Below the pieces are notes generated by a model. The model worked only from the letters and a program-made list of their open reading frames with translations. It ran no database searches and was not told the DNA's origin. From Mesobacillus sp. AQ2 (GTDB taxonomy: Bacteria; Bacillota; Bacilli; Bacillales; Cytobacillaceae), in contig NZ_CP126080.1 of NCBI RefSeq assembly GCF_030122805.1, positions 2,237,001 through 2,301,000 of the forward strand: DNA of 64,000 nt, read 5' to 3'. The translations under genes and the position numbers were made by a program. How positions within the stretch are numbered: the first letter of the stretch is position 1; the number at the start of each line of letters is the position of its first letter. Shown here in pieces: positions 13,621 to 43,413 of this stretch.

Positions 13621-13647
13621 AAAGAGGGCTTCTGGCTCTCTTTTTTT
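13621..13647 (+). terminator. Terminator of the restriction cassette
   Basis: AAAGAGGGC (13621-13629) pairs with GCTCTCTTT (13635-13643) with one G-T pair and is followed by a T run. It separates the four-gene cassette from the mcrB-type gene. Confidence 0.75.
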
Positions 13648-15348: not shown

Positions 15349-15363
15349 AATGGGCAATTTAGT

Positions 15364-22105: not shown

Positions 22106-22135
22106 TTGACAACTAAAATATTCTCCAGTTACAAT
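22106..22135 (+). promoter_or_regulatory. Promoter of the first TRAP operon
   Basis: A perfect TTGACA (22106-22111) and TACAAT (22130-22135) with an 18-bp spacer. Transcription would start near 22142, giving a leader of about 185 nt in front of dctP. Confidence 0.75.
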
Positions 22136-22326: not shown

Positions 22327-23379
22327 ATGAAGAAACTGTCTATTTTATTTCTAAGTATCATGATGATCAGCTCAATGGTTTTAGCAGCATGCGGAGGGAA
22401 CTCAAGCTCGACAGGTTCAGCGGAAAATGGTTCTTCTGACAGTGCGGGTGGCAAAGGCGAAAAGCGCACGCTCAGGGTTAGTATCGGTGTTAATGATAAG
22501 CATCCTGAATATGAAGCAGCTCAGAAGTTTAAAGAGTTGGTTGAAGCTGAATCAGATGAATTAACTGTTGAGGTTTATCATTCCGGGCAAATTGCAGATG
22601 ATCGTTCGGCAATTGAAATGCTTCAATTTGGTACGCTGGATATTACGATTCCTTCAACATCTCCGCTTGTAAACTTTATCCCTGAGTTTGGTGTATTCGA
22701 CCTTCCATTCACTGTTCCGAATGAAGAGGTTGCAGACAAGGTATTGGATGGTCCGTTTGGTGACAAGATGCTTGACTTGGTTGATAAGCAGGGGCTTGTT
22801 GGTCTTGCCTGGTGGGAAAATGGTTTCCGTAACTTAACGAACGATGTAAAGCCTGTCGCAAAGATGGAAGATGTTAAAGGGTTAAAAATCCGTACAATGG
22901 AAAACGAAATTCACCTTGACGCCTGGAAGGCACTTGGTGCGAACCCTACTCCAATGGCATTCACTGAATTGTTCACAGCATTGCAGCAAGGCACGATTGA
23001 TGGGCAGGAAAATCCATACCCAACTATTTTGCTAAGTAAGTATCCTGAAGTACAGAAACATATTTCAAACACAAACCATGTATACACACCATTCATTTTC
23101 TTGTTCAGCAAGAAAATTTGGGAAGAGCTTTCTCCGGAACAGCAGGAAATTATCTCAAAGGCATCTGTAGAGGCAGGCAAGTTTAACCGTCAGCGGACTC
23201 GTGAAGTAGCGGCGGAATCTCTTGAAACGTTAAAGAAGGAAATGACTTTTACAGAAGTAGCAGACGGGGAATTTGAAAAGTTCCAGGAAGCTGTTAAACC
23301 GGTTGTTGAAAAATATAAATCTAAAATCGGTGAAGATATTGTAGATGAATTCATGTCTGAGATTGATAAGGCAAAATAA
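22327..23379 (+). CDS. dctP: TRAP transporter substrate-binding protein, DctP family
   Basis: A 350-aa lipoprotein. The signal peptide has a lipobox LAAC with Cys near residue 22, followed by a Ser/Gly-rich linker and the DctP fold. Family marks are the strand RVSIGVNDKHPEYEAA, the conserved arginine in GLKIRTMEN that binds the substrate carboxylate, and the segment ALQQGTIDGQENPY. It would capture an organic or sugar acid outside the membrane and hand it to the DctQM permease encoded next. It belongs to the TAXI-free DctP/UxuP/YiaO branch, many of whose members bind uronates and aldonates. Confidence 0.92.
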   Translation: MKKLSILFLSIMMISSMVLAACGGNSSSTGSAENGSSDSAGGKGEKRTLRVSIGVNDKHPEYEAAQKFKELVEAESDELTVEVYHSGQIADDRSAIEMLQFGTLDITIPSTSPLVNFIPEFGVFDLPFTVPNEEVADKVLDGPFGDKMLDLVDKQGLVGLAWWENGFRNLTNDVKPVAKMEDVKGLKIRTMENEIHLDAWKALGANPTPMAFTELFTALQQGTIDGQENPYPTILLSKYPEVQKHISNTNHVYTPFIFLFSKKIWEELSPEQQEIISKASVEAGKFNRQRTREVAAESLETLKKEMTFTEVADGEFEKFQEAVKPVVEKYKSKIGEDIVDEFMSEIDKAK

Positions 23380-23385
23380 TTTTTG

Positions 23386-23426
23386 AAAAGAGCAGCCGGT
23401 TGTCGCCCGATGGCCGGCCTCTTTTT
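23386..23426 (+). terminator. Intercistronic hairpin between dctP and dctQ
   Basis: AAAAGAG-CA-GCCGG pairs with CCGGC-CTCTTTT, followed by T. Between genes of one operon such a structure probably lowers read-through or protects the dctP mRNA, so that binding protein exceeds permease. Confidence 0.65.
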
Positions 23427-23446
23427 AAACGAAGAGGTGATCCAGA

Positions 23447-23980
23447 ATGTTAAAACCTTTAAAATGGCTTGATGAGAACCTGGAGAAATACATAATATTC
23501 CTTTTGTCGACAGTCATGGTCGTCGTTATCTTTATCCAGGTATTTATGCGCTATGTGATGTCCAACTCTTTGTCCTGGTCAGAGGAACTGGCTCGATATT
23601 GCTTTATTTGGCTGATATATATAGGAATAAGCTATGCGGTCAAGCATCATCGTCACATCAAAGTAGATGCTGCACTACTTCTTTTTAAAGATAAAACAAA
23701 AATTTATTTTGCACTCATCTCAAATATCCTCTTTCTCATTTTCTGTGTGTATGTTGTGATCTATGGTTATGGAATCGCATCCCAATTACTATCATTTGGA
23801 CAGACAACACCAGCACTTCAAATTCCAACTGGTATCGTATATCTAGCTCCTCCCGTTGGTATGGGCCTTGCGGGAATAAGGTTAATTCAAAATATTATTG
23901 GTAACTTTATATCTATCAAAAACTTTGATAAAACTCAGGAACTACCAGAAGATGTTGGGCAGAACATTAACGTTATCTAG
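23447..23980 (+). CDS. dctQ: TRAP transporter small permease, DctQ family
   Basis: A 177-aa membrane protein with four hydrophobic segments (about 15-38, 50-65, 88-112, 130-155) and the DctQ marks FMRYVMSNSLSWSEELARY and HRHIKVDAALLL. DctQ couples the binding protein to the large DctM channel of sodium-driven TRAP transporters in the cytoplasmic membrane. The ribosome site GAAGAGGTGAT is proper. It lies 67 bp after dctP and 25 bp before dctM. Confidence 0.93.
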   Translation: MLKPLKWLDENLEKYIIFLLSTVMVVVIFIQVFMRYVMSNSLSWSEELARYCFIWLIYIGISYAVKHHRHIKVDAALLLFKDKTKIYFALISNILFLIFCVYVVIYGYGIASQLLSFGQTTPALQIPTGIVYLAPPVGMGLAGIRLIQNIIGNFISIKNFDKTQELPEDVGQNINVI

Positions 23981-24005
23981 TAGATGTTGAAGGAGGTCCT
24001 TTTAA

Positions 24006-25271
24006 ATGGCAGGCGTATTATTCGGTTCATTCGCAGTATTCCTATTTTTCACCGTTCCAATAGGAATTGCAATTGGATTAGCTGTCTTATTCACCATTTT
24101 ATATACAGGTGGAATGCCAGTAGAATTCCTGATGAAGGAATTAACCAACTCTGTTGATTCTTTTCCGCTTTTGGCTGTTCCATATTTTATTATCGCAGGC
24201 GAAATTATGGGGAAAGGCGGAATTTCCAAACGTCTTTTTAATGTCGCTGATTCAATGGTCGGAAATAAAACTGGCGGCATTGCGATGGCAACAATCATCA
24301 CCTGTATGTTTTTCGCTGCCATCTCCGGTTCAGGTCCTGCAACAGTAGCAGCAATCGGAGGTATAATGATTCCGGCCATGGTTCAGAAAGGATATGATAA
24401 GCGCTTCGCAACTGCCGTTGTTGCATCGGCAGGTTCAATCGGCGTTATTATTCCTCCAAGTATTCCAATGGTTATATACGGTGTATCTGGCAGTGTTTCA
24501 ATTGGAGATATGTTCATAGCAGGGATTATCCCAGGTATTCTCGTTGGAATTGGCCTTATGATTTATTCATATATTCATTCGAAGAAAATGGGATATACCG
24601 GTACGGACCATAAAACCACCGTTAAAGGCATTCTCACAGCAATCTGGGATGCCAAATGGGCCCTCATGATTCCTATGGTTATTTTAGGCGGAATTTACGG
24701 CGGGGTTTTTACACCGACAGAAGCAGCGGTTGTTGCTGTTGTATTTGGCTTAATTGTTAGTGTTTTCGTTTACAAAGAGTTGAAATTTAAAGATTTGCCG
24801 CAGATTTTTGTAGATTCTGGTTTAACGACAGCGACCGTTTTAGTAATTGTAGGAGCAGCTACTGCTTTTGGGCGCTTGCTGACCATTGAACAAATACCAA
24901 ATCAGATTGCCCAGGCGATGCTCTCTCTTTCCAGCGAACCGCTGATCATTATGATGCTGATTACATTGTTGCTGTTAATAGTTGGCTGCTTTATGGATAC
25001 GATTGCCGCAATTATTATCTTGACGCCAATCCTGCTTCCTGTTGCAACTCAGATTGGCTATGATCCAATACACTTTGGGATCATTATGATTGTCAATCTC
25101 TCTATTGGATTCATAACACCTCCTCTTGGTGTAAACCTGTTCGTCGGTGCTGGTATCTCGGGCTTGTCGCTTGAGCAGTTATCAAAAGCGATTGTCCCTT
25201 TCTTTTTCGCAATGGTTATCACATTGCTCTTAATCATCGTGGTTCCACAATTGTCACTGCTATTTTTATAA
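24006..25271 (+). CDS. dctM: TRAP transporter large permease, DctM family
   Basis: A 421-aa integral membrane protein with about 12 spans, the elevator-type transport subunit of the TRAP complex. The family motifs AAISGSGPATVAAIG (first substrate/Na+ site), GVIIPPSIPMVIYG and the second half FITPPLGVNLFVGAG are intact. A good AAGGAGG site precedes the ATG. Together with the two preceding genes it makes a full uptake system. The operon ends at a hairpin 27 bp later. Confidence 0.95.
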   Translation: MAGVLFGSFAVFLFFTVPIGIAIGLAVLFTILYTGGMPVEFLMKELTNSVDSFPLLAVPYFIIAGEIMGKGGISKRLFNVADSMVGNKTGGIAMATIITCMFFAAISGSGPATVAAIGGIMIPAMVQKGYDKRFATAVVASAGSIGVIIPPSIPMVIYGVSGSVSIGDMFIAGIIPGILVGIGLMIYSYIHSKKMGYTGTDHKTTVKGILTAIWDAKWALMIPMVILGGIYGGVFTPTEAAVVAVVFGLIVSVFVYKELKFKDLPQIFVDSGLTTATVLVIVGAATAFGRLLTIEQIPNQIAQAMLSLSSEPLIIMMLITLLLLIVGCFMDTIAAIIILTPILLPVATQIGYDPIHFGIIMIVNLSIGFITPPLGVNLFVGAGISGLSLEQLSKAIVPFFFAMVITLLLIIVVPQLSLLFL

Positions 25272-25297
25272 TTTTATTCGACGATAATATTTCAGGT

Positions 25298-25336
25298 TAA
25301 ACAGCATTAAGTCAGAAAAAATGCTGTTTCCTTTTA
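25298..25336 (+). terminator. Terminator of the first TRAP operon
   Basis: AAACAGCAT (25298-25306) pairs with ATGCTGTTT (25321-25329), followed by CCTTTT. Confidence 0.7.
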
Positions 25337-25345
25337 GGGATATTA

Positions 25346-25371
25346 CAAAACAGAGTTTTACATTATAGAAC
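25346..25371 (+). promoter_or_regulatory. Operator in front of the second TRAP operon
   Basis: GTTTTACATTATAGAAC (25355-25371) is nearly the reverse complement of the second operator at 22164-22180. A half-site CAAAAC (25346-25351) sits exactly 20 bp before the same half of the full site, repeating the tandem spacing of the first operon. This points to one shared regulator. Confidence 0.55.
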
Positions 25372-25421
25372 AAAAATCAACATAAGAGATTAGCAACGAA
25401 AAAAATAAAGGGGAGATGCAC

Positions 25422-26450
25422 ATGAAGAAGAAAAAGGTTTTCGGGCTGGCAGTTACAGTGATGGCAAGCTTTTTATTCCTGGCAGGCTGTGGAGGAGAAG
25501 AGGCAGGAGGTGAAACCGGGGGTGGAAAGAAGAAAGTTATTAAAGTAGCAAACTACTTTGCGGAAGATCACCCTCAGAATGTTGCATTAAGGGAAAAGTT
25601 TAAAAAAATGGTTGAAGAAGAAAGCAAAGGAGAGCTGGAGGTCCAAATATTCCCGAACAGCACGCTTGGTGCAGAAAAGGAATTTTATGACGGAGTCCGG
25701 AATGGCACGATTGAAATGGGGCTTCCTGGCTTGATTATGCAGGCTGACATTCCAAAAATGGCAGCACCAGAATGGCCGTTCCTATTCAAGGATTTTGAAC
25801 ATGCCAAAACTGTTCTGAATGGACCAATTGGAGAAGAGTTGACTGAAGACCTTGAATCTAAGCATGGGGTTAAGCCGCTGGCATGGAGTGCGAATGGTTT
25901 CCGGATGTTCTCATCCAATCAAACAATTGCCAGTCTAGAAGATTTTAATGGGCTGCGCCTAAGAATGCCGAATATACCAAACTATATTGAACTTGGAAAA
26001 TTGCTGGGTGCCAATATTACGCCGCTCCCAATCTCTGAAGTTTTCACAGCCCTTGAGCAAAAAGTAGTTGACGGGCAGGATAACCCAATTGCTACCGTGC
26101 GTGCGTCAGGCTGGTATGAGGTCCAAAGTGACATTCTGGAATCTAAGCATATGTTCAGCCCAAACTTGTATATTATCAACAGCAAATTCTGGAATGGCTT
26201 AACAAAAGAACAACAGAAAATTATTGAAAAGGCTGCAAAGGAATCTGCAGATTATGAGTTTGAACTTCTCGAAAAGAGCTACGAAGAAGACAAGAAGTTC
26301 CTTCAGGATAATGGTCTTAAATTCACAACACCTTCAGAAGAGTTTTCAGCAGAAATGGAAGAAGCAGCCCAGCCGCTATATGAAAAAATCTACAGTGAAT
26401 TTGATTGGGCTAAGGATTTAGCTGACCGTATCCGCGACGAAGCTAAGTAA
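25422..26450 (+). CDS. dctP: TRAP transporter substrate-binding protein, DctP family (second system)
   Basis: A 342-aa lipoprotein with lipobox LAGC and a Glu/Gly-rich linker, followed by the DctP fold (VIKVANYFAEDHPQNVAL, GLRLRMPN with the carboxylate-binding Arg, ALEQKVVDGQDNP). It is only distantly similar to the first DctP in this window, so the substrate may differ. The ATG at 25422 is favoured over the one at 25416, which lies inside the GGGGAG ribosome site. It is the first gene of a run that continues into the catabolic genes. Confidence 0.92.
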   Translation: MKKKKVFGLAVTVMASFLFLAGCGGEEAGGETGGGKKKVIKVANYFAEDHPQNVALREKFKKMVEEESKGELEVQIFPNSTLGAEKEFYDGVRNGTIEMGLPGLIMQADIPKMAAPEWPFLFKDFEHAKTVLNGPIGEELTEDLESKHGVKPLAWSANGFRMFSSNQTIASLEDFNGLRLRMPNIPNYIELGKLLGANITPLPISEVFTALEQKVVDGQDNPIATVRASGWYEVQSDILESKHMFSPNLYIINSKFWNGLTKEQQKIIEKAAKESADYEFELLEKSYEEDKKFLQDNGLKFTTPSEEFSAEMEEAAQPLYEKIYSEFDWAKDLADRIRDEAK

Positions 26451-26461
26451 TACGATAAAAC

Positions 26462-26498
26462 GCCAGGAGGAATAAATTTTCTGTTCCTCCTCGGCTTT
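26462..26498 (+). terminator. Intercistronic hairpin after the second dctP
   Basis: GCC-AGGAGGAA pairs with TTCCTCCT-c-GGC and is followed by TTT. As after the first dctP, it probably sets the ratio of binding protein to permease. Confidence 0.55.
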
Positions 26499-26524
26499 AA
26501 AAAGCAGGTAGGAAGGAGAAAGCC

Positions 26525-27070
26525 GTGTTTAGCAAAATCAGCTCTTTTTCTAATAAACTTTTAAACATTGCGATTGCCTTTTCACTGGCCGCCATGTCCT
26601 TCGCCGTCTTTGGAAATGTCGTGCTGAGATATGTATTTAATTCAGGTCTAACCTGGTCAGAAGAAATATCCCGCTACCTATTCGTCTGGATGGTATTCCT
26701 GGGTGCCATTGCGGCATTAAAGGATAAAATGCACCTTGGCGTGGACATTGTCGTCAACGCCCTTCCTAAGAAACTTCAAAAGCTAGTCTTCCTGATCAGC
26801 AATGCCATTGTCCTGTATCTATTGTGGCTTGTCCTGCAAGGAAGCTGGAAAATGACTATTCTTAATATGAACAGTACGGGCCCGGCAACGGGTATGCCCT
26901 TATCCTATTTATATGGAATCGGGATAGTATCAAGCATATGGATGATGCTCCTTGTGATTGCGAGCCTTTTGAAAGCAATCAGAGGGAAGACAGAAAATAT
27001 GACGATAATCCAATCTTCAAATGACGTTTTATCGGAAGTTTCACAGGAAGATAAGTTCATAGCAAAATAG
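26525..27070 (+). CDS. dctQ: TRAP transporter small permease, DctQ family (second system)
   Basis: A 181-aa membrane protein with four spans and the DctQ marks VVLRYVFNSGLTWSEEISRYLF and KDKMHLGVDIVV. It starts with GTG at 26525 after AAGGAGAAAGCC. It is the small membrane subunit of the second TRAP system, encoded between its binding protein and large permease. Confidence 0.92.
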   Translation: MFSKISSFSNKLLNIAIAFSLAAMSFAVFGNVVLRYVFNSGLTWSEEISRYLFVWMVFLGAIAALKDKMHLGVDIVVNALPKKLQKLVFLISNAIVLYLLWLVLQGSWKMTILNMNSTGPATGMPLSYLYGIGIVSSIWMMLLVIASLLKAIRGKTENMTIIQSSNDVLSEVSQEDKFIAK

Positions 27071-27100
27071 CGGCGGCATGAAAGGAGGCCTAAATTCGTC

Positions 27101-28378
27101 ATGATAGGAGTTTTCTTAGGATCATTGTTTGGATCCCTGGCATTAGGGGTGCCAATAGCATTTGCACTCCTTGCGAGCGGGGTAATGCTGATGTTCGTCA
27201 TGGGCACTTTTGATAGCCAAATCGTTGCCCAGAACTTAATTAACGGGGCCAATAACTTTTCGTTGATGGCCATTCCGTTCTTTGTCCTTGCTGGCGAATT
27301 AATGAATGCCGGGGGGATATCCAAGCGCATTGTTGAATTTTCCATGGCACTTGTCGGCCATATAAGAGGCGGACTTGGGTTTGTAGCCATCATTGCCAGC
27401 ATATTATTTGCGGGGTTATCGGGATCCGCCGTTGCTGATACAGCAGCACTTGGCGCGATATTAATCCCGATGATGATTGCCAAAGGTTATAATGTGAACA
27501 CTTCAACAGGCATTATTTGTGCATCCGGTATTATTGCTCCAGTTATTCCTCCAAGCATTCCAATGATTTTATTTGGTGTAACAGCAGGAGTATCCATTAC
27601 GGATCTCTTCATGGGAGGCATTATTCCTGGCGTTATGATGGGAGTCGGGCTGATGATTGGCTGGTTCTTCATGTCACGGAAGGACACAAGTGAACTTCCA
27701 CCGCGAAAATCAGCCAAAGAAATTTTGGAAGCAGTTAAGCAGGCCAGTTTTGCTTTAATGCTTCCAGTCATCATTATTGGCGGTCTCCGCGGCGGTGTGT
27801 TTACACCAACAGAAGCTGCAGTAGTGGCTGCATTTTATGCACTGTTTGTAGGCTTATTCATTTATCGTGAGCTGAAGCTCGAGGAATTGTATCATGTATT
27901 AATTGCTTCGGCAAAAACAACCAGTGTTGTGATGTTTGTCGCTGCTGCGGCCATGGTATCAGCCTGGCTCATTACGGTGGCTAATGTACCGGCAGAAATT
28001 GCAGGTTATATGGGTTCGCTTGTTAGCAGTCCACTGCTGTTAATGACAGTAATCATGATTTTCTTGCTATTGATCGGACTTGTCATGGACCTTACACCGG
28101 CTATCCTGATCTTTACACCGGTTTTGCTGCCGCTTGTTAAAATGGCCGGAATCGATCCAGTCTACTTTGGAATCGTCATGGTTATCAATCTGTGTATTGG
28201 ATTGATTACTCCTCCGGTTGGCACTGTTTTATATGTGGGGTGCGGAATAAGCAAAATCAGTCTGGCAGAATTGACGAAAGGCATCTGGCCATTTTTGGTG
28301 GTCCATACAACCGTGCTGGCGCTGCTGATTCTATTCCCGGAAATTATTACAGTACCGCTTAGTTGGCTGTCAGAGTGA
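27101..28378 (+). CDS. dctM: TRAP transporter large permease, DctM family (second system)
   Basis: A 425-aa protein with about 12 spans. The conserved ILFAGLSGSAVADTAALG, PVIPPSIPMILFG and LITPPVGTVLYVG segments are present. An AAGGAGG site lies about 12 nt before the ATG. It is the transport subunit of the second system. Its stop is 22 bp from the LarA-type gene, so uptake and the first catabolic steps are co-expressed. Confidence 0.94.
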   Translation: MIGVFLGSLFGSLALGVPIAFALLASGVMLMFVMGTFDSQIVAQNLINGANNFSLMAIPFFVLAGELMNAGGISKRIVEFSMALVGHIRGGLGFVAIIASILFAGLSGSAVADTAALGAILIPMMIAKGYNVNTSTGIICASGIIAPVIPPSIPMILFGVTAGVSITDLFMGGIIPGVMMGVGLMIGWFFMSRKDTSELPPRKSAKEILEAVKQASFALMLPVIIIGGLRGGVFTPTEAAVVAAFYALFVGLFIYRELKLEELYHVLIASAKTTSVVMFVAAAAMVSAWLITVANVPAEIAGYMGSLVSSPLLLMTVIMIFLLLIGLVMDLTPAILIFTPVLLPLVKMAGIDPVYFGIVMVINLCIGLITPPVGTVLYVGCGISKISLAELTKGIWPFLVVHTTVLALLILFPEIITVPLSWLSE

Positions 28379-28400: not shown

Positions 28401-29651
28401 ATGGACATCATAAAAGAAATGTTAATAGATATCCCCATTCCCAAAATGGTTAAAGTAAAGCAAAAATTTCATGCACCCCAGCTTGTTGATGTGGGGGCTG
28501 AGGTCCGGAAAACACTGAATGAAACGAATGTGCTGACTAAAATTAGCGAAGGAGACTCCGTTGCGATTGCAGTTGGAAGCAGGGGCCTGGCAGATTTGCC
28601 TGTTCTGGTGCGTGAAACTGTCAGGGAAATTAAGCGTGTCGGAGGGCTGCCATTTATTGTACCGGCAATGGGAAGCCATGGCGGGGCAACAGCGGAAGGC
28701 CAGATTGATGTGCTTCACCAATTGGGCGTGACGGAAGGTGCTGTCGAGGCACCGATTAAATCCTCTATGGAAGTTTTCAAGATTGGTGAACTTCCAAATG
28801 GGCTTCCGGTCTATATTGACCGAAACGCTTACGAAGCTGACAAAATTGTTGTCATAAACCGTATTAAGCCTCATACGGCATTCCGCGGACCGGTAGAAAG
28901 CGGTCTTATGAAAATGATTACAATCGGGCTTGGAAAGCAAAAAGGAGCTGAAGCTGCCCATGCCTACAGCTTTAAATACATGGCAGAGCATGTACCGGAA
29001 ATGGCCAAAATTTCATTGTCAGAAGCGCCGATCATTTTCGGCCTTGCCTCTCTCGAAAATGCTTACGACAAGGTAGCAAAGATTATTGCTGTCCCGGCAG
29101 AAGACCTTGAGACTGCCGAGCCGGAGCTTTTGAAGGAAGCAAAGTCTTTAATGCCTAAAATTCATTTTGATGAGTTTGATGTCCTGATTGTCGACGAGCT
29201 CGGAAAAGACATTTCGGGCGATGGGATGGACCCGAATATTACTGGGAATTTCGCTACGCCATATGCAACAGGGGGACCGGATATCAAAAGAACTGTGGTG
29301 CTGGGCCTGACTGAAAAGACACATGGAAACGCAAACGGCATTGGCATGGCAGATATGACGACCAAAGCCGTAGTGGATGAAATCATATGGGAAAAGGGCT
29401 ATGCAAATGCACTGACAAGTACCGTCATTGAGGTTATTAAGCTTCCAATGGTGCTGGAAACAAAAGAACTTGCGGTCAAGGCGGCTATTAAAACTTGTAA
29501 TGCCTTTGATCTGAACAAAGCAAGAGTGGTTCGTATCAAAAATACATTAGACATCGGAGAAATCTGGATTTCAGAAAGCATGGTGCCTGAAGCGAAACAA
29601 AACAGCAGTCTAGAAGTTATTTCAGAGCTTGAAGAATTGATACTCGATTAA
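28401..29651 (+). CDS. LarA-family nickel-pincer hydroxyacid racemase/epimerase
   Basis: A 416-aa protein of the lactate racemase N-terminal (DUF2088) family. Members use a nickel-pincer nucleotide to racemise or epimerise 2-hydroxyacids by hydride transfer. His93 (GSHGGA), His158 (IKPHTAF), Lys171 (LMKM) and His187 (AAHA) match the order and nearly the spacing of the catalytic and cofactor-binding His108, His174, Lys184 and His200 of the Lactobacillus enzyme. The genome carries the cofactor genes 15 kb downstream (larB, larC1, larC2, larE). Its place between a TRAP system and a sugar-acid dehydratase suggests C2-epimerisation of an aldonate rather than of lactate (inferred). Confidence 0.85.
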   Translation: MDIIKEMLIDIPIPKMVKVKQKFHAPQLVDVGAEVRKTLNETNVLTKISEGDSVAIAVGSRGLADLPVLVRETVREIKRVGGLPFIVPAMGSHGGATAEGQIDVLHQLGVTEGAVEAPIKSSMEVFKIGELPNGLPVYIDRNAYEADKIVVINRIKPHTAFRGPVESGLMKMITIGLGKQKGAEAAHAYSFKYMAEHVPEMAKISLSEAPIIFGLASLENAYDKVAKIIAVPAEDLETAEPELLKEAKSLMPKIHFDEFDVLIVDELGKDISGDGMDPNITGNFATPYATGGPDIKRTVVLGLTEKTHGNANGIGMADMTTKAVVDEIIWEKGYANALTSTVIEVIKLPMVLETKELAVKAAIKTCNAFDLNKARVVRIKNTLDIGEIWISESMVPEAKQNSSLEVISELEELILD

Positions 29652-29707
29652 TCCGAAAAAAAGCTGCAAAACCAATACTTGCAGATAAATAGGTAAGGAG
29701 TGATCCC

Positions 29708-31912
29708 ATGACACAATTATACCCGCTCATTGATAATCCTGTGAATCCATATCGAGACAATGTACAGGGGAAGGCAAATGAACCAATTACAGTAGCCGGT
29801 CTTTTGGATCGGGCAAAACAGACACTCGGTTCTTCCTACGAAGGCGGAAAGCCGGATTGGACACTTGAAGAAATCTATAACCGACTGGAAATGAATGCCC
29901 CGCGTATAGCGATTATCGGAGGATCATCAGATCACCCGGCCCATATTATGGATTACCAGACGTCTGCCAGGGCAGCCATCCGCATTTGGCAAAATGGAGG
30001 AGTTCCTTTTTATTTTTCCACCCCGGTTATGTGTGACGGTACTGCGCAAAGCAATCAGGGGATGAGCTACTCACTTCAAAGCCGGAATGCGGTTGCCCAA
30101 ATGGTAGTCAATCAGCTTGAGGCTCATAGTTATCACGGTGCCTTTGTTATCCAGGGGTGCGATAAGCAGCCGCTTGGTGTTGTAAGCGCATTGGCACATG
30201 TTGACAGGGTAAGGAGAAGCCGTGGTGAGGCTCCGTTTTTTGCAACATTTGCTCCAGCTCATGTTCTTGAAGGAGGCTCTATACCAGATGATGTGATCAC
30301 CGAGCTGGAAGACCTGGCGAAAAAAGCAGAAGCGGAAGGTGCTTCAGATGTGGCACTTGATTTGCGCGACACAATGGCTTACATTTTGCAATGCTCATCA
30401 AATACTGCCTTTCAGGGCGTTTTCGAGCGTGCCTGCGAAAGGGGGATTTTAACAAAAGAACAGCATAAATATTTTGAAATGAGGCTGGCTGTTGCAACCT
30501 GTGACGGTCAGGGCGGTGTTTGTGCCTTTAATGGTACCGGCAATAGCTCCAGACATTTAGTGGCCGGATTTGGCCTGGTTCATCCAGCTGTAGAGATGCT
30601 GACAGACCCGCCGACACAAAGGCAGATCAATTCTGTGCTAGATAGTTTTGCCACCATGATTAATGAAGAGAAATATGGAGTCTCCAATATCGTAGCAGCA
30701 AACATTAAAAATGCCATCCGGATTCACAGTGCTTCAGGAGGCTCGACCAACCTGATGATGCATATTGTGGCAGGAATGATCTATGGTGGTTATAAATTCA
30801 GTCTATGGGATTTGGACCGCATCCATCATGAATATCCGATTCCGGATCTATTTGATTACAGTCTGACAGAGGGCCGTGACATTTACTCGCTTGCTATGCA
30901 GTGCTGCAGCGGTACTAGCCGGGGAATGGAAACACTCTTCTTTCAACTCCTTGAAAACGGCGTACCGATGGATCAGGATGCACCGACAGTTGCTGCTAGA
31001 ACATGGAGAGAGCGACTTGCCATTACACGGAGTCTCCAGGCAGCCAATGTAAAAGAAAACCCTGTTATCTTATCAACACCGCGCCGAGCATTTAGCGGAG
31101 TGGATGTTCTGCAAGGGAATTTCTTCGAAAGTGCTGTAGTAAAAATAAGCGGAATGCCGACATCGCAGCTTGATCAGTTCGATGATAAGCTGGCATTTGT
31201 CCTTTATTTTGAGAATGAAGATGATGCAAACAGAAGCCTTTTGGACTCAAGTCTCCTTAACAGGCTTAAAATGGATAAATTATTTGATCATAATCTGCTG
31301 CTTGAAACACTTAAATATAACAATAAACAGGAATATGAACGCCTAAAAGGAGAAACATACGAAAAATTATTTGACGAGATGGCTGAAAAGGGCATCCTTA
31401 AAATTTCAGTTGTCATATCAGGACAGGGCCCGGTAGCATTCGGAATGCCGGAAATGTTCACACCAATGCAGCATATCAATGCCAACCGCGTGATGAAAAA
31501 GCTGGCAACCATCATCAGTGATGGACGCTATTCCGGGGTTACATATGGGGCAGCCATTGGCCATATGACACCTGAAGCTTATGAAGGCGGCGGAGTTGGT
31601 TTCCTTCAGACAGGAGATGTGGTCCATCTGCAGCTTAGAAGGCGCCGAATTGATTTTGTAGATCGAGCCCAGCTATTCGCAGGCAATGTTGTCCATGCTT
31701 TTTCAGACACCTTAAAAGATGATAGACAATTACTCGCGGAAGAAAGAAAACAGCTAATGAAAGCACGACAGAAACTTGTTGCGGCTAGCAATCGCATGTA
31801 TGGCCATACTGATGCGGCAAATGGGGTTGTTCCGCTGGCAGTAGCGGAGGATGCAGTGCTTGACTATAAAAAAGATATTTCACTGAATGAAACAAGTGCG
31901 ATAGCAAAATAA
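29708..31912 (+). CDS. IlvD/Edd family sugar-acid dehydratase (YjhG/YagF-like)
   Basis: A 734-aa dehydratase, longer than the 570-650 residues usual in the family. Likely iron-sulphur ligands are Cys109 (PVMCDG), Cys151 (GCDKQ) and Cys229 (LQCSSNTAFQ). The C-terminal half carries DGRYSG, typical of IlvD/Edd enzymes. The closest type I recognise is YjhG/YagF, the D-xylonate dehydratases that make 2-keto-3-deoxy acids from aldonates. It stands 56 bp after the LarA-type gene with a good AAGGAG site. The precise aldonate cannot be told from sequence. Confidence 0.88.
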   Translation: MTQLYPLIDNPVNPYRDNVQGKANEPITVAGLLDRAKQTLGSSYEGGKPDWTLEEIYNRLEMNAPRIAIIGGSSDHPAHIMDYQTSARAAIRIWQNGGVPFYFSTPVMCDGTAQSNQGMSYSLQSRNAVAQMVVNQLEAHSYHGAFVIQGCDKQPLGVVSALAHVDRVRRSRGEAPFFATFAPAHVLEGGSIPDDVITELEDLAKKAEAEGASDVALDLRDTMAYILQCSSNTAFQGVFERACERGILTKEQHKYFEMRLAVATCDGQGGVCAFNGTGNSSRHLVAGFGLVHPAVEMLTDPPTQRQINSVLDSFATMINEEKYGVSNIVAANIKNAIRIHSASGGSTNLMMHIVAGMIYGGYKFSLWDLDRIHHEYPIPDLFDYSLTEGRDIYSLAMQCCSGTSRGMETLFFQLLENGVPMDQDAPTVAARTWRERLAITRSLQAANVKENPVILSTPRRAFSGVDVLQGNFFESAVVKISGMPTSQLDQFDDKLAFVLYFENEDDANRSLLDSSLLNRLKMDKLFDHNLLLETLKYNNKQEYERLKGETYEKLFDEMAEKGILKISVVISGQGPVAFGMPEMFTPMQHINANRVMKKLATIISDGRYSGVTYGAAIGHMTPEAYEGGGVGFLQTGDVVHLQLRRRRIDFVDRAQLFAGNVVHAFSDTLKDDRQLLAEERKQLMKARQKLVAASNRMYGHTDAANGVVPLAVAEDAVLDYKKDISLNETSAIAK

Positions 31913-31972: not shown

Positions 31973-32740
31973 ATGCCTATCATACAATCAGTGGAAAGAG
32001 CATTAAAAATAATGGATTTATTTGACGAGCGGGAGAGAGAATTATCCATTACTGAAATCAGCAAAAGAATGAATCTGCATAAAAGCACGGTTCATTCCCT
32101 TTTAAAAACCTTACAGGAACAAAGGTATATCTCTCAAAATGAAGAAAATGGGAAATACCGTTTGGGGCTAAAGCTTTTTGAGCGCGGGAACATGGTCCTA
32201 AGCGATCTTGATTTGCGAAAAGTTGCAAGGTACCACCTTGAAAAACTGTCGTCTACAACTAACTTAACGGTCCATCTTGTGATTCTTGATGGTCAGGAAG
32301 GTATTTATATCGATAAAGTTGAAGGCAGCGGAGTCACCGTACTATATTCCCGAATTGGCCGCCGTGTTCCCGTTCATACAAGCGCGGTTGGAAAGTCGCT
32401 GATCTCTATGAAAAACGAAGCTGAATTGGACCAGTTTCTTGAAAACTATCAGTACACAAAGCAAACACCGAAATCAATTTCTTCAAAAGAAGAACTGCTG
32501 GAGGAAATTGATCATGTTCGGTCGGCTGGATATTCTGTAGATAATGAAGAGAATGAACCTGGTATTTTTTGCCTGGCGGTTCCAATCAAAAATTACTCTG
32601 GCAAAGTTGTTGCAGGCATCAGCATGTCCATGCCGGCTGCAAAAGTAACAGAAGAAATCCGCGAACAGTACGTTGGGCTCCTAAAAGAGTGCAGTACTAG
32701 CATTTCAAAAGAGCTGGGCTATGAGTATCAAAAAATATAA
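31973..32740 (+). CDS. IclR family transcriptional regulator
   Basis: A 255-aa regulator with an N-terminal winged helix (about 5-65; SITEISKRMNLHKSTVHSLLKTL is the helix-turn-helix) and a C-terminal GAF-like effector domain (about 80-250; GRRVPVHTSAVGKS and NEENEPGIFCLAVPI). IclR proteins that control sugar-acid genes, such as KdgR types, release DNA when they bind the pathway intermediate. An AGGAGAGTG site precedes the ATG. It is the only local regulator of the island and the best candidate for the 17-bp dyads before both TRAP operons. Confidence 0.92.
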   Translation: MPIIQSVERALKIMDLFDERERELSITEISKRMNLHKSTVHSLLKTLQEQRYISQNEENGKYRLGLKLFERGNMVLSDLDLRKVARYHLEKLSSTTNLTVHLVILDGQEGIYIDKVEGSGVTVLYSRIGRRVPVHTSAVGKSLISMKNEAELDQFLENYQYTKQTPKSISSKEELLEEIDHVRSAGYSVDNEENEPGIFCLAVPIKNYSGKVVAGISMSMPAAKVTEEIREQYVGLLKECSTSISKELGYEYQKI

Positions 32741-32927: not shown

Positions 32928-33824
32928 ATGAGAATTATCCGCTATCTAAAGGGAAATGAAAAACAGCTTGCGGCAGTAACCAATGAAAATGAAGTAGCAG
33001 ACCTTCCATTCGGCGACTTTTTATCCTTGATTGCTGAAGCACGAAAAAATAATAGAACAGCATTTGACATTATAAAACAAGTTGTAGGTGAAGTGGAGAA
33101 ACAGCCATTGGAGGGTCTTCAGTTAACCACTCCAATCGATGCACCTGAAGTATGGGCATCAGGCGTTACCTACAAAAAAAGCAAGGAAGCACGAAATTAT
33201 GAAGCAACACAGGGAAAGCTTGACCGGGAAACATTCTATGACAAAGTGTATGATGCTGTCCGCCCTGAAATATTTTTTAAATCAACAGCGGCAAGAACGG
33301 TAGGACCGAATGATCCTGTTTATCTCCGATCAGATTCCAACTGGCAAATTCCAGAGCCGGAGCTGGGCCTGGTTATTGATAGTGAAGGCAATGTGCTTGG
33401 TTATACGGCTGGAAACGATATGAGCTGCCGGGACATTGAGGGGGAAAACCCGCTCTATCTTCCACAGGCTAAGGTCTGGAAGAATTCCTGCTCCATCGGT
33501 CCGGCGATTGTATTGGCTGAAACTGTTTCAGATCCTTATGAATTTAAAATTATTTGCCGTATCTACCGTGATGAAGAGCTTGTCTTTTATGGGGATGCGC
33601 AGGTCAATCAGCTGAAGCGCACTTTGGATGAACTTGTCCACTATTTGGTCCTTGATAATGAAATCTTTGATGGAACGGTGCTGCTAACTGGCACATGCGT
33701 TGTACCGCCAAACGAATTTACATTAGCAGAAAATGACCGGATTGAAATCGAAGTTCCTGGCATCGGAATCCTGAACAACCCGGTTATCCAAAGTGAAAAA
33801 GCGAAGCAAGCCGCTAAGGGGTGA
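32928..33824 (+). CDS. FAH-family 2-keto-3-deoxy sugar acid dehydratase (XylX/KdaD-like)
   Basis: A 298-aa protein of the fumarylacetoacetate hydrolase fold. The segments VWASGVTYKKSKEAR, VYDAVRPEIFFK and GYTAGNDMSCRDIEGENPLYLPQAK are those of the XylX/KdaD branch. That branch does not hydrolyse C-C bonds but dehydrates 2-keto-3-deoxy-pentonates to 2-oxoglutarate semialdehyde. The metal ligands would be the Glu residues in PEPELGL and the Asp in GNDMS. The next-but-two gene encodes a matching aldehyde dehydrogenase. The ATG at 32928 has AGGAGG at 6 nt and is preferred over the upstream in-frame ATG. Confidence 0.8.
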   Translation: MRIIRYLKGNEKQLAAVTNENEVADLPFGDFLSLIAEARKNNRTAFDIIKQVVGEVEKQPLEGLQLTTPIDAPEVWASGVTYKKSKEARNYEATQGKLDRETFYDKVYDAVRPEIFFKSTAARTVGPNDPVYLRSDSNWQIPEPELGLVIDSEGNVLGYTAGNDMSCRDIEGENPLYLPQAKVWKNSCSIGPAIVLAETVSDPYEFKIICRIYRDEELVFYGDAQVNQLKRTLDELVHYLVLDNEIFDGTVLLTGTCVVPPNEFTLAENDRIEIEVPGIGILNNPVIQSEKAKQAAKG

Positions 33825-33828
33825 GGAA

Positions 33829-34125
33829 ATGAGCGAGTACAAAACACTATATTTAAATAACAAGGATAGTGTGGCTATTGCTTTATCCGAGATACCTGCC
33901 GGGGCGCAAGTGACTGTAAAAACAGATGATAGAGAATTTAAGGTGGAGATTCTTGAACCAATCCGATTTGGCCATAAATTTGCAGTCCGGGCGATTCCAC
34001 AGGGGGATGACATTATTAAATATGGAGAGGTGATCGGGGCGGCAGTTTGCCCGATTGATGCCGGAGAACACGTGCATGTCCACAATCTGGAAGGTAAAAG
34101 AGGAAGAGGTGACAAGGTTGTTTAA
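33829..34125 (+). CDS. UxaA-type dehydratase, small (SAF domain) subunit
   Basis: A 98-aa SAF-domain protein. The family marks are the N-terminal DSVAIAL and the C-terminal YGEVIGAAVCPIDAGEHVHVHNL. Together with the next gene it makes a split altronate-dehydratase-type (UxaA/GarD/SuyAB superfamily) enzyme. These are iron-dependent lyases that remove water, or sulfite in SuyAB, from hydroxyacids. The start at 33829 follows GGTGAGGAA and overlaps the stop region of the FAH gene. The end overlaps the start of the large-subunit gene. Confidence 0.85.
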   Translation: MSEYKTLYLNNKDSVAIALSEIPAGAQVTVKTDDREFKVEILEPIRFGHKFAVRAIPQGDDIIKYGEVIGAAVCPIDAGEHVHVHNLEGKRGRGDKVV

Positions 34126-35290
34126 CGAAAAACTTCAATTTTGGGGTTATCGCCGTCCCGATGGGCGTGTAGGGGTTAGAAATCATGTGCTTATCCTGCC
34201 AACGATTACTTGTGCTACTCAAACTGCCCAGCGGGTGACAGAGCTGGTCAGCGGAACCGTTACTTTTATTCACCAGCATGGATGTGCTCAGGTCGGCACG
34301 GATTATGACCAGACAGCCAGAACCTATGCAGGAATGGGGATGAACCCAAATGTTTTCGGTGTGATTGTCCTGGGCCTTGGCTGTGAAACTCATCAGGCGC
34401 ACCGAATCGGCGATGAAATTGCCAAATGCGGCAAGCCTGTGCAAACAGTTTCCATCCAGGAACATGGCGGAACGCTTCAAACTATAGCCGAGGTGGCAAA
34501 AATAGCTGTGAAAATGGTTCAGGATGCTTCCATGGTCCAGCGTGAACTATGTGATTTCAGCGAATTAATCGTAGGTACAGAATGCGGCGGTTCTGATGCA
34601 TGTTCCGGCCTTTCGGCAAACCCTGCCGTTGGCCGCACAAGTGACATGCTTGTTGAACAGGGAGGAACCGCCATTCTAGCCGAGACAACAGAATTAATTG
34701 GCGCGGAACACTTGCTAGCCAACCGTGCTGCTAATGACTCAGTCGCCAAAAAAGCATATGCCGTCATCAAAATGATGGAAAACAGGTCAATCCAAATGGG
34801 AGTTGACATCCGTACCGGGAATCCAAGTCCGGGCAATATTGAAGGCGGCCTGAGCTCACTCGAAGAAAAGTCGCTTGGGGCAGCAACAAAGTCGGGTACA
34901 TCTCGGTTGGAAGAAGTAATTGATTATGCACAGAGACCGACCAAAAAAGGGTTGGTTTGGATGGATACGCCGGGACATGATATTGAGCAGCTGACTGGCA
35001 TGGTCGCTGGCGGAGCGCAGATCGTCCTTTTCACCAGCGGGCGTGGAACTCCTACTGGATCGCCAATTGCCCCTGTTATTAAAATCTCAACAAATACCCC
35101 AATGTTCGAACGCATGAACGAAAACATGGACTTAGATGCAGGAACCATCGTTCACGGGAAAGAAACCGTCGGGGAAGTCGGCGGTCGTATCATGAAGGAA
35201 ATCCAGGCAGTAGCTAATGGCAAACTGACAAAAGCTGAAATATTGAAACAGCATGACTTTGGAATTTGGCGTATTGGTCCGACATTCTAA
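34118..35290 (+). CDS. UxaA-type dehydratase, large subunit
   Basis: A protein of about 390 aa matching the C-terminal catalytic part of altronate/galactarate dehydratases: FWGYRRPDGRVGVRNHVLILPT at the N-terminus, HQHGCAQ with metal-binding residues, GTECGGSDACSGLSANPA and MDTPGHD. The start codon is unclear. TTG at 34118 follows AAGAGGTGA, and GTG at 34109 is possible too. Both overlap the small-subunit gene, so translation is coupled. The substrate is probably an altronate- or galactarate-like sugar acid. Sulfolactate lyase is a less likely reading in this context. Confidence 0.85.
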   Translation: MFNEKLQFWGYRRPDGRVGVRNHVLILPTITCATQTAQRVTELVSGTVTFIHQHGCAQVGTDYDQTARTYAGMGMNPNVFGVIVLGLGCETHQAHRIGDEIAKCGKPVQTVSIQEHGGTLQTIAEVAKIAVKMVQDASMVQRELCDFSELIVGTECGGSDACSGLSANPAVGRTSDMLVEQGGTAILAETTELIGAEHLLANRAANDSVAKKAYAVIKMMENRSIQMGVDIRTGNPSPGNIEGGLSSLEEKSLGAATKSGTSRLEEVIDYAQRPTKKGLVWMDTPGHDIEQLTGMVAGGAQIVLFTSGRGTPTGSPIAPVIKISTNTPMFERMNENMDLDAGTIVHGKETVGEVGGRIMKEIQAVANGKLTKAEILKQHDFGIWRIGPTF

Positions 35291-36840: not shown

Positions 36841-36861
36841 CTAATGGCAGGAGGTGCCCAT

Positions 36862-38010
36862 ATGAAAATCACGAAACTTTCATTGTATAAAGTTCCGCCT
36901 CGCTGGCTGTTTTTAAAGATTGAAACAGATGAAGGCATATCCGGCTGGGGAGAGCCGGTTGTTGAAGGGCGTGCAGAAACAGTAAAGGCAGCAGTCACTG
37001 AACTGTCAGATTACATCATAGGCCGTAATCCCAATGACATTGAGGACATCTGGCAAACACTGTACCGCGGCGGATTTTACCGGGGCGGTCCGATTCTGAT
37101 GAGTGCCATCTCCGGCATTGAACAGGCCCTCTGGGATATAAAAGGCAGGTATTATAAAATACCAGTCTATGAAATGCTTGGCGGCAAGGCTCGCCAAAAA
37201 ATCAAAGTATATTCCTGGATTGGAGGAGACCGTCCGGCTGATGTCGCTGCTGCAGCAAAAGAAAAGCAGGAACAGGGCTTTCAGGCAATTAAAATGAACG
37301 CCTCCGAAGAAATGAACTACATAGACAGCTTTTCAAAAATTGACTCGGTAATTGAGCGGGTTGCATCGATTCGCGAAGCACTCGGCAAGGATTTTGGCAT
37401 CGGAATAGACTTTCATGGCAGGATTCATAAAACCATGGCCAAATCCCTTGTGAAGGAGCTTGAACCTTACCGCCCGATGTTTATTGAAGAGCCGGTGCTA
37501 CCGGAGAACAATGAGGCGCTGCGGGAAATCGCGCTCCACACATCCTGCCCGATTGCAACCGGGGAAAGAATGTACACGCGCTGGGGTTTTAAGCAGCTTC
37601 TGCAGGACGGATATGTAGATATTATCCAGCCTGATCTGTCACACACAGGCGGTATTCTCGAAGGCAAGAAAATTGCTGCGATGGCTGAAGCATATGATGT
37701 TTCCATTGCACCGCATTGTCCCCTTGGGCCGATGACGCTTGCTTCATCAGTTCATCTGGATGCTTCTACCCCTAATTTCATCATCCAGGAACAAAGCCTG
37801 GGGATTCATTATAATCAGGGCATGGATATTCTCGATTATATCAATAACCCAGAAGTATTTGCCTATAAAGATGGCTATGTGAGCATTCCTGACCAGCCGG
37901 GCCTGGGTATTGAGATTAATGAAGAAAAAGTGAAACAGGCAGCGGAAGTCGGACATGATTGGAAAAACCCTATTTGGCGCCATGCAGACGGCAGTATTGC
38001 CGAATGGTAA
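36862..38010 (+). CDS. dgoD: D-galactonate dehydratase
   Basis: A 382-aa enolase-superfamily enzyme (mandelate racemase branch) that removes water from D-galactonate to give 2-keto-3-deoxy-galactonate. The length equals that of Escherichia coli DgoD, and the key residues fall on the same numbers: Asp183 and His185 (DFHGR), Glu209 (FIEEP), Glu235 (TGER), His285 (APHCPLG). The start at 36862 follows AGGAGGTGCC. The kinase and aldolase needed to finish the De Ley-Doudoroff route are encoded 4-5 kb downstream. Confidence 0.9.
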
Positions 38011-38023
38011 AGGAGGAGAAAGA

Positions 38024-38935
38024 ATGAGCTTTAAAGGAATTATTCCCCCGGTTGTCACCTTGTTTGATGAGGCAGGAAATTTGGATCTGGATTTGAATAG
38101 AAAGTATCTTGATAAGCTGATTTCACAGAAAATTCATGGTATTTTGCTGATGGGCAGTTCTGGAGAGTTTTCTTCACTTACCATTGAAGAACGGAAGCTT
38201 TATGTCAGGGAAATGCTTAAACATATCAATGGCCGCGTAAAAGTAATGGTTGGTGTAGGCCATACCGCGCTCAAGGAGGTGCATGAACTAACCTCTTATG
38301 CAGAAGAATTTGGAGCAGATGGTGTGCTGGTTGTCAGCCCGTATTACTGGAAACTCTCAGATGAGCAGCTTTACCGCTTTTATTCAAGTGTTGCGAGCAA
38401 TACTGAGCTGCCCGTATTTATTTATAATATCCCGCAATTAACCGGACAAAATTTGCCGGTTGAGTTAATCATAAAATTGGCTAAAGATCATTCGAATATT
38501 GCAGGGATTAAAGTAACTGTCGGTGATTTCGGTCATATACGCCAGGTAATCTCAAAGGTAAAGGAAGTTCGTCCTGATTTCCTTGTTTTCTCTGCATTTG
38601 ATGAGCATATGCTTCCTGCGCTGATGATCGGTGCAGATGGAAGCATTAATGGCAGCTCTGTTTTTGCACCGGAAGTGTCAGTAAACCTGTATGAAGCCTA
38701 TCAAAGAGGTGTTTTGGCAGAAGCGGAGAGAAACCATCAGATAATCTCCAGACTTATGGATGTTTACACCTATTGCCCGACGTTTTTTACAACCATGAAG
38801 GAGGCAGTTCACGTGCGATGGTTTGATACAGCAGCGGGACACCGTACCCCTTTTGATGTATATCCTGCGGATTTACGTGAGCAAGTTCAAAATCTATTAA
38901 AAACTATTGAATCGAAAGAAGGCGTCCAATTATGA
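38024..38935 (+). CDS. DHDPS/NAL-family 2-keto-3-deoxy sugar acid aldolase (YagE/YjhH-like)
   Basis: A 303-aa class I aldolase of the dihydrodipicolinate synthase family. The Schiff-base lysine is in AGIKVT, the catalytic tyrosine in FIYNIPQLTGQ, and the loop MGSSGEFSSL replaces the GTTGE of DapA. The N-terminal GIIPPVVTLF and the segment SPYYWKLS are those of YagE/YjhH, aldolases that split 2-keto-3-deoxy-gluconate or -xylonate into pyruvate and an aldehyde. YagE/YjhH partner YagF/YjhG dehydratases in E. coli, and the same pair occurs here. The start at 38024 has AAGGAGGAG in front. Confidence 0.85.
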   Translation: MSFKGIIPPVVTLFDEAGNLDLDLNRKYLDKLISQKIHGILLMGSSGEFSSLTIEERKLYVREMLKHINGRVKVMVGVGHTALKEVHELTSYAEEFGADGVLVVSPYYWKLSDEQLYRFYSSVASNTELPVFIYNIPQLTGQNLPVELIIKLAKDHSNIAGIKVTVGDFGHIRQVISKVKEVRPDFLVFSAFDEHMLPALMIGADGSINGSSVFAPEVSVNLYEAYQRGVLAEAERNHQIISRLMDVYTYCPTFFTTMKEAVHVRWFDTAAGHRTPFDVYPADLREQVQNLLKTIESKEGVQL

Positions 38936-40908: not shown

Positions 40909-40924
40909 GAAAGGATTGAAACTG

Positions 40925-42783: not shown

Positions 42784-43413
42784 ATGAGCAGGCTAGAAGA
42801 ATTGAAAAAAAGCAAGATTGTAGCTGTTATTCGCGGTGCACGTCCTGATCAGATTTTGCCTATCGCATATGCACTAAAGTCAGGGGGTATCAGCGCATTT
42901 GAAATTACAGTCGAGACACCCAAGGTTTGCGCGTTAATTGAAAAAGTAAAAGAAGAGTTTGGAAATGAGGTCATTGTCGGGGCGGGAACGGTACTAGATG
43001 CCGAAACAGCACGTTCAGTAATCCTGTCAGGAGCTGAATTCATCTTTTCGCCAACAGTGAATGCTGAAACGATTAAGATGGCGAAGCGGTACGGTGTTCT
43101 CAGTATTCCAGGGGCTTTTACGCCAACCGAAATTCTTACTGCATATGAAAATGGAGGGGACATCATCAAGGTGTTTCCGGCGGATGTGCTGGGTGTTTCC
43201 TATTTTAAAAGTCTGAAAGGACCTCTTCCCCATATCCCATTGATGCCAACAGGAGGCATAAACGCCGAAAATATCCATGACTATTTTAGAGCAGGTGCTG
43301 TTGCGGCAGGTGTTGGAGGATCGTTAGTCAACCCTAAAAAGCTTAAATCTGAAAAGGATTATTCAGACCTTACAGAAAAAGCGAAACAATATTCCAACCT
43401 GGCGGTGTTTTAA
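42784..43413 (+). CDS. eda: KDPG/KDPGal aldolase
   Basis: A 209-aa class I aldolase that splits 2-keto-3-deoxy-6-phospho-gluconate (or -galactonate) into pyruvate and glyceraldehyde 3-phosphate. The catalytic Glu is in FEITVETP, and the Schiff-base lysine is in IIKVFPAD. The phosphate site PTGGINAENI is intact. An AAAGGGAGG site precedes the ATG. It completes the route from galactonate with DgoD and the kinase. The gene ends 12 bp before the convergent larC2 gene. Confidence 0.93.
   Translation: MSRLEELKKSKIVAVIRGARPDQILPIAYALKSGGISAFEITVETPKVCALIEKVKEEFGNEVIVGAGTVLDAETARSVILSGAEFIFSPTVNAETIKMAKRYGVLSIPGAFTPTEILTAYENGGDIIKVFPADVLGVSYFKSLKGPLPHIPLMPTGGINAENIHDYFRAGAVAAGVGGSLVNPKKLKSEKDYSDLTEKAKQYSNLAVF

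Follow-up and report, generated by a model that had tools for sequence, protein, structure and literature searches.

A Group 22 LarA Homologue Predicted to Act on Aldonates beside an IlvD/Edd-Type Dehydratase in a Sugar-Acid Island of Mesobacillus sp. AQ2

Organization of the Island

The DNA analysed here (the window, whose positions are used throughout) is a stretch of 64,000 nucleotides from Mesobacillus sp. AQ2 (assembly GCF_030122805.1, contig NZ_CP126080.1, positions 2,237,001 to 2,301,000). It carries a sugar-acid island centred on two intact open reading frames (ORFs): larA, which codes a 416 amino acids-long homologue of the nickel enzyme LarA (28401–29651, + strand), and the gene of a 734 amino acids-long dehydratase that belongs to a separate subfamily of the IlvD/Edd superfamily (29708–31912, +). 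The LarA homologue is probably a 2-epimerase that uses the nickel-pincer nucleotide (NPN) cofactor and acts on an imported aldonate upstream of the dehydratase. The island's gene content, the intact cofactor and catalytic residues and the genomic linkage are direct observations, from which we infer epimerase activity and the class of substrate.

The island starts with a run of 20 genes in the same direction (22327–43413, + strand), followed by larC2 on the opposite strand and then by larB, larC1 and larE. Two TRAP transporters (22327–28378) lie directly 5′ of larA. The first (DctP 22327–23379, DctQ 23447–23980, DctM 24006–25271) was recognized by sequence resemblance and by similar genes in relatives. 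In the second, DctP (25416–26450; 219.6 bits, cut-off 175) and DctM (27101–28378; 485.8 bits, cut-off 268) passed their models and DctQ (26525–27070) was assigned by resemblance. Only 22 bp separate its end from larA and 56 bp separate larA from the dehydratase gene, so that the position between a TRAP system and a dehydratase described in the initial annotation is confirmed. The cofactor genes, which that annotation also placed in the island, are found 14 kb 3′ of larA and all score above their cut-offs: larC2 (43425–43880, −; 150.5 bits, cut-off 50), larB (43943–44683, +; 293.8 bits, cut-off 175), larC1 (44712–45434, +; 221.7 bits, cut-off 90) and larE (45452–46282, +; 344.4 bits, cut-off 150). 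A promoter-like site upstream of the gene run (TTGACA-18-TACAAT, 22106–22135, +) was identified by consensus match only; it is a weak candidate because 37 such sites were found against 28.2 (sd 5.1) in shuffled sequences.

The genes between the dehydratase and larC2, all on the + strand, are mostly of catabolic types. An IclR-type regulator (31973–32740), assigned by resemblance and with a similar gene in relatives, is followed by a KdaD-like FAH-fold protein (32928–33824; 234 bits to PDB entry 2q18, next best 71), by the small N-terminal subunit (33832–34125, by resemblance and position) and the large part (34055–35290, by library scans; 251 bits to galactarate dehydratase 6u7l) of a UxaA/GarD-superfamily dehydratase, and by an α-ketoglutaric semialdehyde dehydrogenase of the GucD model NF042993 (35310–36776; 854 bits, cut-off 770). 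An enolase-superfamily protein matching the D-galactonate dehydratase model DgoD (36844–38010; 683 bits, cut-off 311) precedes a DapA-family lyase or dehydratase (37955–38935, library scans) and a peptidase-U32-like protein (38932–39879; 26.3 bits, cut-off 22.4), which has neither an NCBIfam nor a PDB match and whose gene recurs across many related loci in the neighbourhood of larA and of the IlvD-type gene. Next come a protein of the D-isomer-specific 2-hydroxyacid dehydrogenase family (39949–40908), for which every model remained under its own cut-off, a second FAH-fold protein (40916–41809, library scans), a 2-dehydro-3-deoxy-gluconate/galactonate (KDG) kinase-like protein (41812–42768; best model 222 bits, below the cut-off of 400) and the KDPG/KHG aldolase Eda (42784–43413; TIGR01182, 192.9 bits, cut-off 156). 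The KdaD-like, semialdehyde dehydrogenase, UxaA/GarD, DgoD, KDG-kinase-like and Eda proteins are predicted to degrade aldonates. Composition gave no clear sign of horizontal origin (G+C 0.433 in the island, 0.436 in the downstream and 0.365 in the upstream flank).

The LarA Homologue and Its Active-Site Residues

Pfam places the protein in the LarA superfamily (Lar_N, 40.3 bits, cut-off 23.3; DUF362, 26.9 bits, cut-off 24) and NCBIfam assigns it to NF052515, “nickel pincer cofactor-dependent isomerase, group 22” (560.5 bits, cut-off 400), a model without a named substrate whose number, to judge by the name, is that of Desguin's group 22. Lactate racemase proper (NF033504; 20.3 bits against a cut-off of 460) and malate racemase LarAH6 (36.6 bits against 500), the best model of any characterised group, were rejected. 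Sequence search found no relative in the PDB and profile search gave only two insignificant rows (best a DUF2088 chain, E 0.65). A literature search, with supplements and most subscription journals outside its reach, retrieved no experimentally tested group 22 enzyme and no LarA-family aldopentonate 2-epimerase; the name “LarAH22” does not occur in the main text of either PMC7583248 or PMC11770544.

Residues were matched by a local profile-profile alignment (probability 92.8) of 137 group 22 sequences with 28 LarA-like proteins; an earlier global profile alignment with 40 close sequences (probability 0.1) was not used. The 137 rows are the window's protein, 63 from related loci, 61 from genomes and 12 from plasmid records, leaving out matches shorter than 300 residues and proteins of 380 amino acids or less. 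The LarA-like set stems from 28 of 30 loci (L149 and L158 were dropped), 25 of its proteins being over and three under the lactate racemase cut-off. The NPN-binding and catalytic residues of LarA, R75, H108, H174, K184 and H200 (PMC7583248), correspond to R61, H93, H158, K171 and H187, each present in 137 of 137 group 22 sequences. Both the NPN-binding set (R61, K171, H187) and the catalytic histidine pair (H93, H158) are therefore invariant, which bears out the four nickel-cofactor residues first recognized in the window's protein (H93, H158, K171, H187) and adds R61. K269, D277 and N336 are also invariant in the 137 sequences. The protein shares with Lactiplantibacillus plantarum lactate racemase the Lar_N domain, the two catalytic histidines, the NPN lysine, the Ni-binding histidine and the supply by larB, larC and larE, but it lacks the F-F loop after the second histidine and its C-terminal half aligns only partly. 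Group 22 retains both histidines, in contrast to the two LarA proteins of known structure with a His-to-Asn replacement (PMC12611868), which form another subfamily.

Since the window's LarA gives the only Lar_N match in the genome (contig of 4,803,959 bases), it is the only LarA homologue that the NPN genes of the island can serve. LarC was present in 20 of 20 searched genomes with this LarA, drawn from those of the 63 related loci. The window's larC2 is opposite in strand to its larC1, and in 10 of those 20 genomes the LarC1 and LarC2 matches, read by eye, share a contig but differ in strand, with 18 kb between them in one case. A frameshift fusion of larC1 and larC2, as reportedly occurs in L. 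plantarum, is therefore impossible there. The nearest named relatives of the LarA protein are found in Cytobacillus and related bacilli. A search of 18 other genomes of the window's genus gave no group 22 match (and LarC2 in one), which makes the island sporadic; named Cytobacillus genomes of another collection do hold its LarA.

The Dehydratase Partner and Its Linkage to larA

The N and C domains of Pfam ILVD_EDD score 114.5 bits (cut-off 27) and 94 bits (cut-off 27.7) on the 734 amino acids-long dehydratase. The initial annotation had called the enzyme YjhG/YagF-like, a name that has to be given up: it reaches 112 bits against a cut-off of 808 for TIGR03432 and is 27% identical to Escherichia coli YagF over 596 aligned positions. 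It shares with the D-xylonate dehydratases YagF and YjhG the IlvD/Edd superfamily and three aligned cysteines (MCDG, GCDK, GVCAF), which we take to bind the cluster. The biosynthetic dihydroxy-acid dehydratase identity was likewise rejected (TIGR00110, 165.6 bits against 618); another IlvD-like frame occurs in the genome at 3014830–3016251 (578 amino acids open). No NCBIfam equivalog model covers the subfamily of the window's enzyme.

Linkage was assessed in 63 related loci, a sample chosen by similarity to the window's LarA and so biased to its clade. An IlvD-type gene follows larA in the same orientation, at less than 150 bp in 30 loci and at less than 3 kb in a further 18 (48/63). Within 8 kb, a limit that misses the far end of operons built like that of the window, TRAP genes were found in 48 loci, KdaD-like in 46, UxaA/GarD in 38, semialdehyde dehydrogenase in 37, MR/MLE dehydratase in 31, Eda in 11 and KDG kinase in nine; in several loci the MR/MLE gene sits between larA and the IlvD-type gene. 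A survey of 398 genomes of the class, in which the IlvD-type protein was counted at E values up to 1e-100, gave a group 22 match in 63 genomes (57 over cut-off), the IlvD-type protein in 39 and both in 33. The enrichment, 33/39 against 63/398 overall (Fisher p about 9e-25), is overstated by the p value because the genomes are related. An intact LarA lies within 3 kb of the IlvD-type gene in 25 of the 39 genomes (coordinates read by eye); G397 and G461 have only larA fragments beside the dehydratase gene, whose frame in G461 also has a stop. Two proteins 71–72% identical to the window's LarA (L031 and L039, 10001–11248) have none of its catabolic genes within 10 kb; L031 neighbours an alcohol-dehydrogenase-like gene, by resemblance, and a transporter of the tripartite-tricarboxylate type.

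A Sister Clade and Its Glucuronate Operon

In a tree of 107 of the 137 rows, built by a quick method with SH-aLRT support only, the window's protein falls in a clade of 34 rows (support 100). Nine rows with about 57% identity to the window's protein form a sister clade (support 100). At the sister locus of Bacillus aerolatus (L064) the gene order is 6-phosphogluconate dehydrogenase (782 bits, cut-off 413), a regulator-like gene in the opposite orientation, glucuronate isomerase (631 bits, cut-off 387), the group 22 larA (565 bits, cut-off 400), mannonate oxidoreductase (288 bits, cut-off 281), larE, a gluconokinase-like gene (482 bits, below the cut-off of 648), larB, larC1 and larC2. No uxuA match was found in this genome, and given also the operon content, 2-epimerization of mannonate to gluconate is the step missing at this locus. 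The simplest reading is a route from D-glucuronate through D-fructuronate to D-mannonate, which the LarA homologue would convert to D-gluconate for phosphorylation to 6-phosphogluconate. The same mannonate/gluconate route was proposed for Thermotoga GntE (PMC7583248, PMC6978723), a LarA of another group. The two clades differ at 23 positions that are at least 90% conserved in each (56 sequences of the window's clade against 13 of the sister), including A188/Q, S190/G, H308/E and A337/G.

Proposed Reaction and Its Place in Catabolism

In the proposed pathway, the TRAP importers would bring aldonates into the cell. By inference from LarA, the C2 hydride of the aldonate would pass to the NPN cofactor as H93 or H158 takes the proton of the 2-hydroxyl group, giving a 2-keto intermediate; hydride and proton would then be returned to the other face to yield the C2 epimer. 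An aldonate with the wrong C2 configuration would in this way become the epimer accepted by the adjacent dehydratase. The 2-keto-3-deoxy product of five-carbon acids would be led by the KdaD-like dehydratase and the semialdehyde dehydrogenase to 2-oxoglutarate, and that of six-carbon acids by the KDG-kinase-like protein and Eda to pyruvate and triose phosphate.

Fold, cofactor, reaction type and the 2-epimerization of aldonates by LarA homologues are already known. The D-gluconate 2-epimerases GntE1 and GntE2 (LarAH19 and LarAH20) are NPN enzymes of the LarA superfamily, GntE2 being placed in a route from mannonate (PMC7583248); they flip C2 of an aldonate as proposed for the window's LarA but belong to other LarA groups, and the available portion of that article describes no IlvD or KdaD partner for them. 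The GntE signature, usually E and V after the second histidine (PMC11770544), is not found in the window's protein, which has T159 and A160. Three points would be new, on the strength of the comparisons made here: a role in aldonate breakdown for one clade of an uncharacterised group, the close association of that clade with an IlvD subfamily and a predicted second appearance of mannonate/gluconate epimerization in another LarA group. Within the LarA superfamily group 22 forms a large branch, for which the gene context provides a short list of candidate substrates. Sugar-acid catabolism in soil bacilli is predicted to depend on nickel and, if the proposal is true, an enzyme would be added to those for making rare aldonates.

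Observations Weighing Against the Proposal

A number of observations, on the protein itself, on its close relatives and on group 22 at large, weigh against an aldonate epimerase. LarA D72 is aligned to a gap ahead of the GSR motif, and 109/137 sequences have a valine three residues before the arginine; the loss of D72 would lower any claim of a mechanism identical to that of LarA. LarA-family groups without other catalytic residues have been reported (PMC7583248). The profile alignment stops at I280; counting on, K298 would meet A285 and LarA YQTVK (that of L132) would stand opposite TGNFA, so that no K298 counterpart is evident. R283 is found in 110/137 sequences; the window's protein has Asn there, as do 21 close relatives and a single distant sequence. 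A solved LarA holds the substrate carboxylate by R73, Q295, K298, H107 and H173 (PMC11851776). Among close relatives, 14 of the 63 loci have no IlvD-type gene and one more has it 8.6 kb upstream; 6 of the 39 dehydratase-bearing genomes have no LarA, and in two of these six (G463 and G643) the dehydratase frame has a stop. In the sister clade, uxuA is present elsewhere in the other five of the six genomes searched. The substrate cannot be read off the island because three dehydratase families are present.

Of 299 genomes of the window's phylum, 72 carry a group 22 match over the cut-off, with up to six copies per genome. A phylum-wide sample of 60 over-cut-off places, some genomes giving more than one, has any of four dehydratase families within 8 kb in only 13 (47/60 have none), compared to 0/20 canonical LarA loci (p 0.031) and to 1/20 content-blind random stretches (p 0.17), the controls being counted over the whole 8–20 kb stretch and some of both sets ending at contig ends. 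Ten dehydratases scanned from eight of the distant loci include five that pass the biosynthetic IlvD cut-off, one (L120) true YjhG/YagF and four that pass neither; in view of these scans, YagF-like BLAST labels at 20 phylum-wide places were not used as evidence. Because 47 of the 60 places lack a dehydratase, its pairing with larA characterizes the window's clade rather than the family at large, and the low count together with the multiple copies per genome indicates that group 22 is probably mixed in function. The initial proposal that the enzyme flips C2 of an imported aldonate ahead of the dehydratase is accordingly retained in part: the context (48/63 loci, 33/39 genomes, the downstream routes in the island and the mannonate-to-gluconate gap of the sister clade) supports it, whereas the YjhG/YagF identity of the dehydratase is lost and the pairing is confined to the clade.

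Eleven plasmid records were fetched around group 22 genes. A UxaA-type gene adjoins the group 22 gene in four (Loktanella, Sporomusa, Sulfitobacter, Pseudosulfitobacter). In Rubrobacter an MR/MLE gene adjoins it and a UxaA-family gene is 7 kb off, in Halomarina MR/MLE genes are less than 4 kb away, and in Marinovum TRAP, KDGal-kinase and aldolase genes are near, with no dehydratase nearby. Paenibacillus cellulositrophicus has the glucuronate arrangement of the sister clade. None of these dehydratases was found near the group 22 gene in the Haloarcula and Halocatena records, and the Niallia record is without annotation. Haloferax volcanii, a control of the phylum survey, has a group 22 match over cut-off; this species may have a nickel-pincer enzyme (PMC8305020).

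Candidate Substrates and Alternative Functions

The first guess for the substrate, a tentative one, is a D-pentonate pair (D-lyxonate/D-xylonate or D-ribonate/D-arabinonate) degraded by a Weimberg-type route. The KdaD-like match and the GucD-type dehydrogenase make the conversion of 2-keto-3-deoxy-D-pentonate to 2-oxoglutarate the best-supported exit. In the D-arabinonate cluster of Herbaspirillum huttiense, a UxaA/GarD-family D-arabinonate dehydratase and a FAH-type 2-keto-3-deoxy-D-pentonate (D-KDP) dehydratase lead to 2-oxoglutarate semialdehyde (PMC6336799). The island has the same pairing and adds an epimerase and an IlvD-type dehydratase; the available text of that article mentions no LarA homologue. 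If the IlvD-type enzyme took a second pentonate, a C2-epimerase would make the remaining epimers accessible.

A hexonate pair, a sub-case of the same aldonate epimerase, is possible though doubtful: D-talonate/D-galactonate, D-mannonate/D-gluconate or D-allonate/D-altronate, with the product passing through DgoD or UxaA, the KDG-kinase-like protein and Eda. The strong DgoD match and the KDG-kinase-like and Eda genes of the island point to it, as do the MR/MLE dehydratase within 8 kb of larA in 31/63 loci, in several of them between larA and the IlvD-type gene, and the hint at mannonate/gluconate from the sister clade. The KdaD-like gene of five-carbon routes is, however, commoner (46/63) than the genes for MR/MLE dehydratase (31), KDG kinase (nine) and Eda (11).

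A function unrelated to sugar acids, with a broad or different 2-hydroxyacid racemase or an enzyme of another hydride-transfer reaction carried by chance in a catabolic island, appears improbable. It would account for the distance of group 22 from the characterised groups (36.6 bits to malate racemase at best, no significant PDB match), for the unconserved D72 and unclear K298 and for the 47/60 phylum-wide members without dehydratase neighbours; genomic context has also failed to indicate the activity in some published cases (PMC7583248). The strong clade-level linkage to aldonate genes and the invariance of both catalytic histidines argue against it. Least probable of all is a 2-epimerase of aldarates (e.g., glucarate/mannarate or galactarate/talarate) ahead of the UxaA/GarD-type dehydratase, which the GarD-like large part, the GucD-type dehydrogenase and the position of relative L050 two genes from a glucarate dehydratase (842 bits, cut-off 829) favour, but the commonest partners of the clade, IlvD-type and KdaD-like, fit monocarboxylic aldonates, and we know of no IlvD-type enzyme that acts on aldarates.

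An extension of the aldonate epimerase proposal, which we regard as rather unlikely, is that D-arabinonate (by the UxaA/GarD type) and D-xylonate (by the IlvD subfamily) are dehydrated directly and that the LarA homologue feeds in D-ribonate and D-lyxonate. All four D-pentonates would then enter one pool of 2-keto-3-deoxy-D-pentonate leading to 2-oxoglutarate, and group 22 would be a large family of nickel sugar-acid epimerases, one clade of which replaces mannonate dehydratase in glucuronate breakdown.

Other Features of the Window

A probable defence island is found at 7381–18703. It codes a C5 DNA methyltransferase (408 bits to a PADLOC type II methyltransferase), a helicase with a type IV restriction-like match, an 856 amino acids-long protein without a PADLOC match and a McrB-like protein, named by resemblance, that is split over two ORFs (13933–15348 and 15364–16242), both of which match PDC-M26A. 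After the sugar-acid island, a squalene-hopene-cyclase-like gene (47041–48927, − strand) and a cobalamin-type biosynthesis cluster (50747–60733) were recognized by resemblance.

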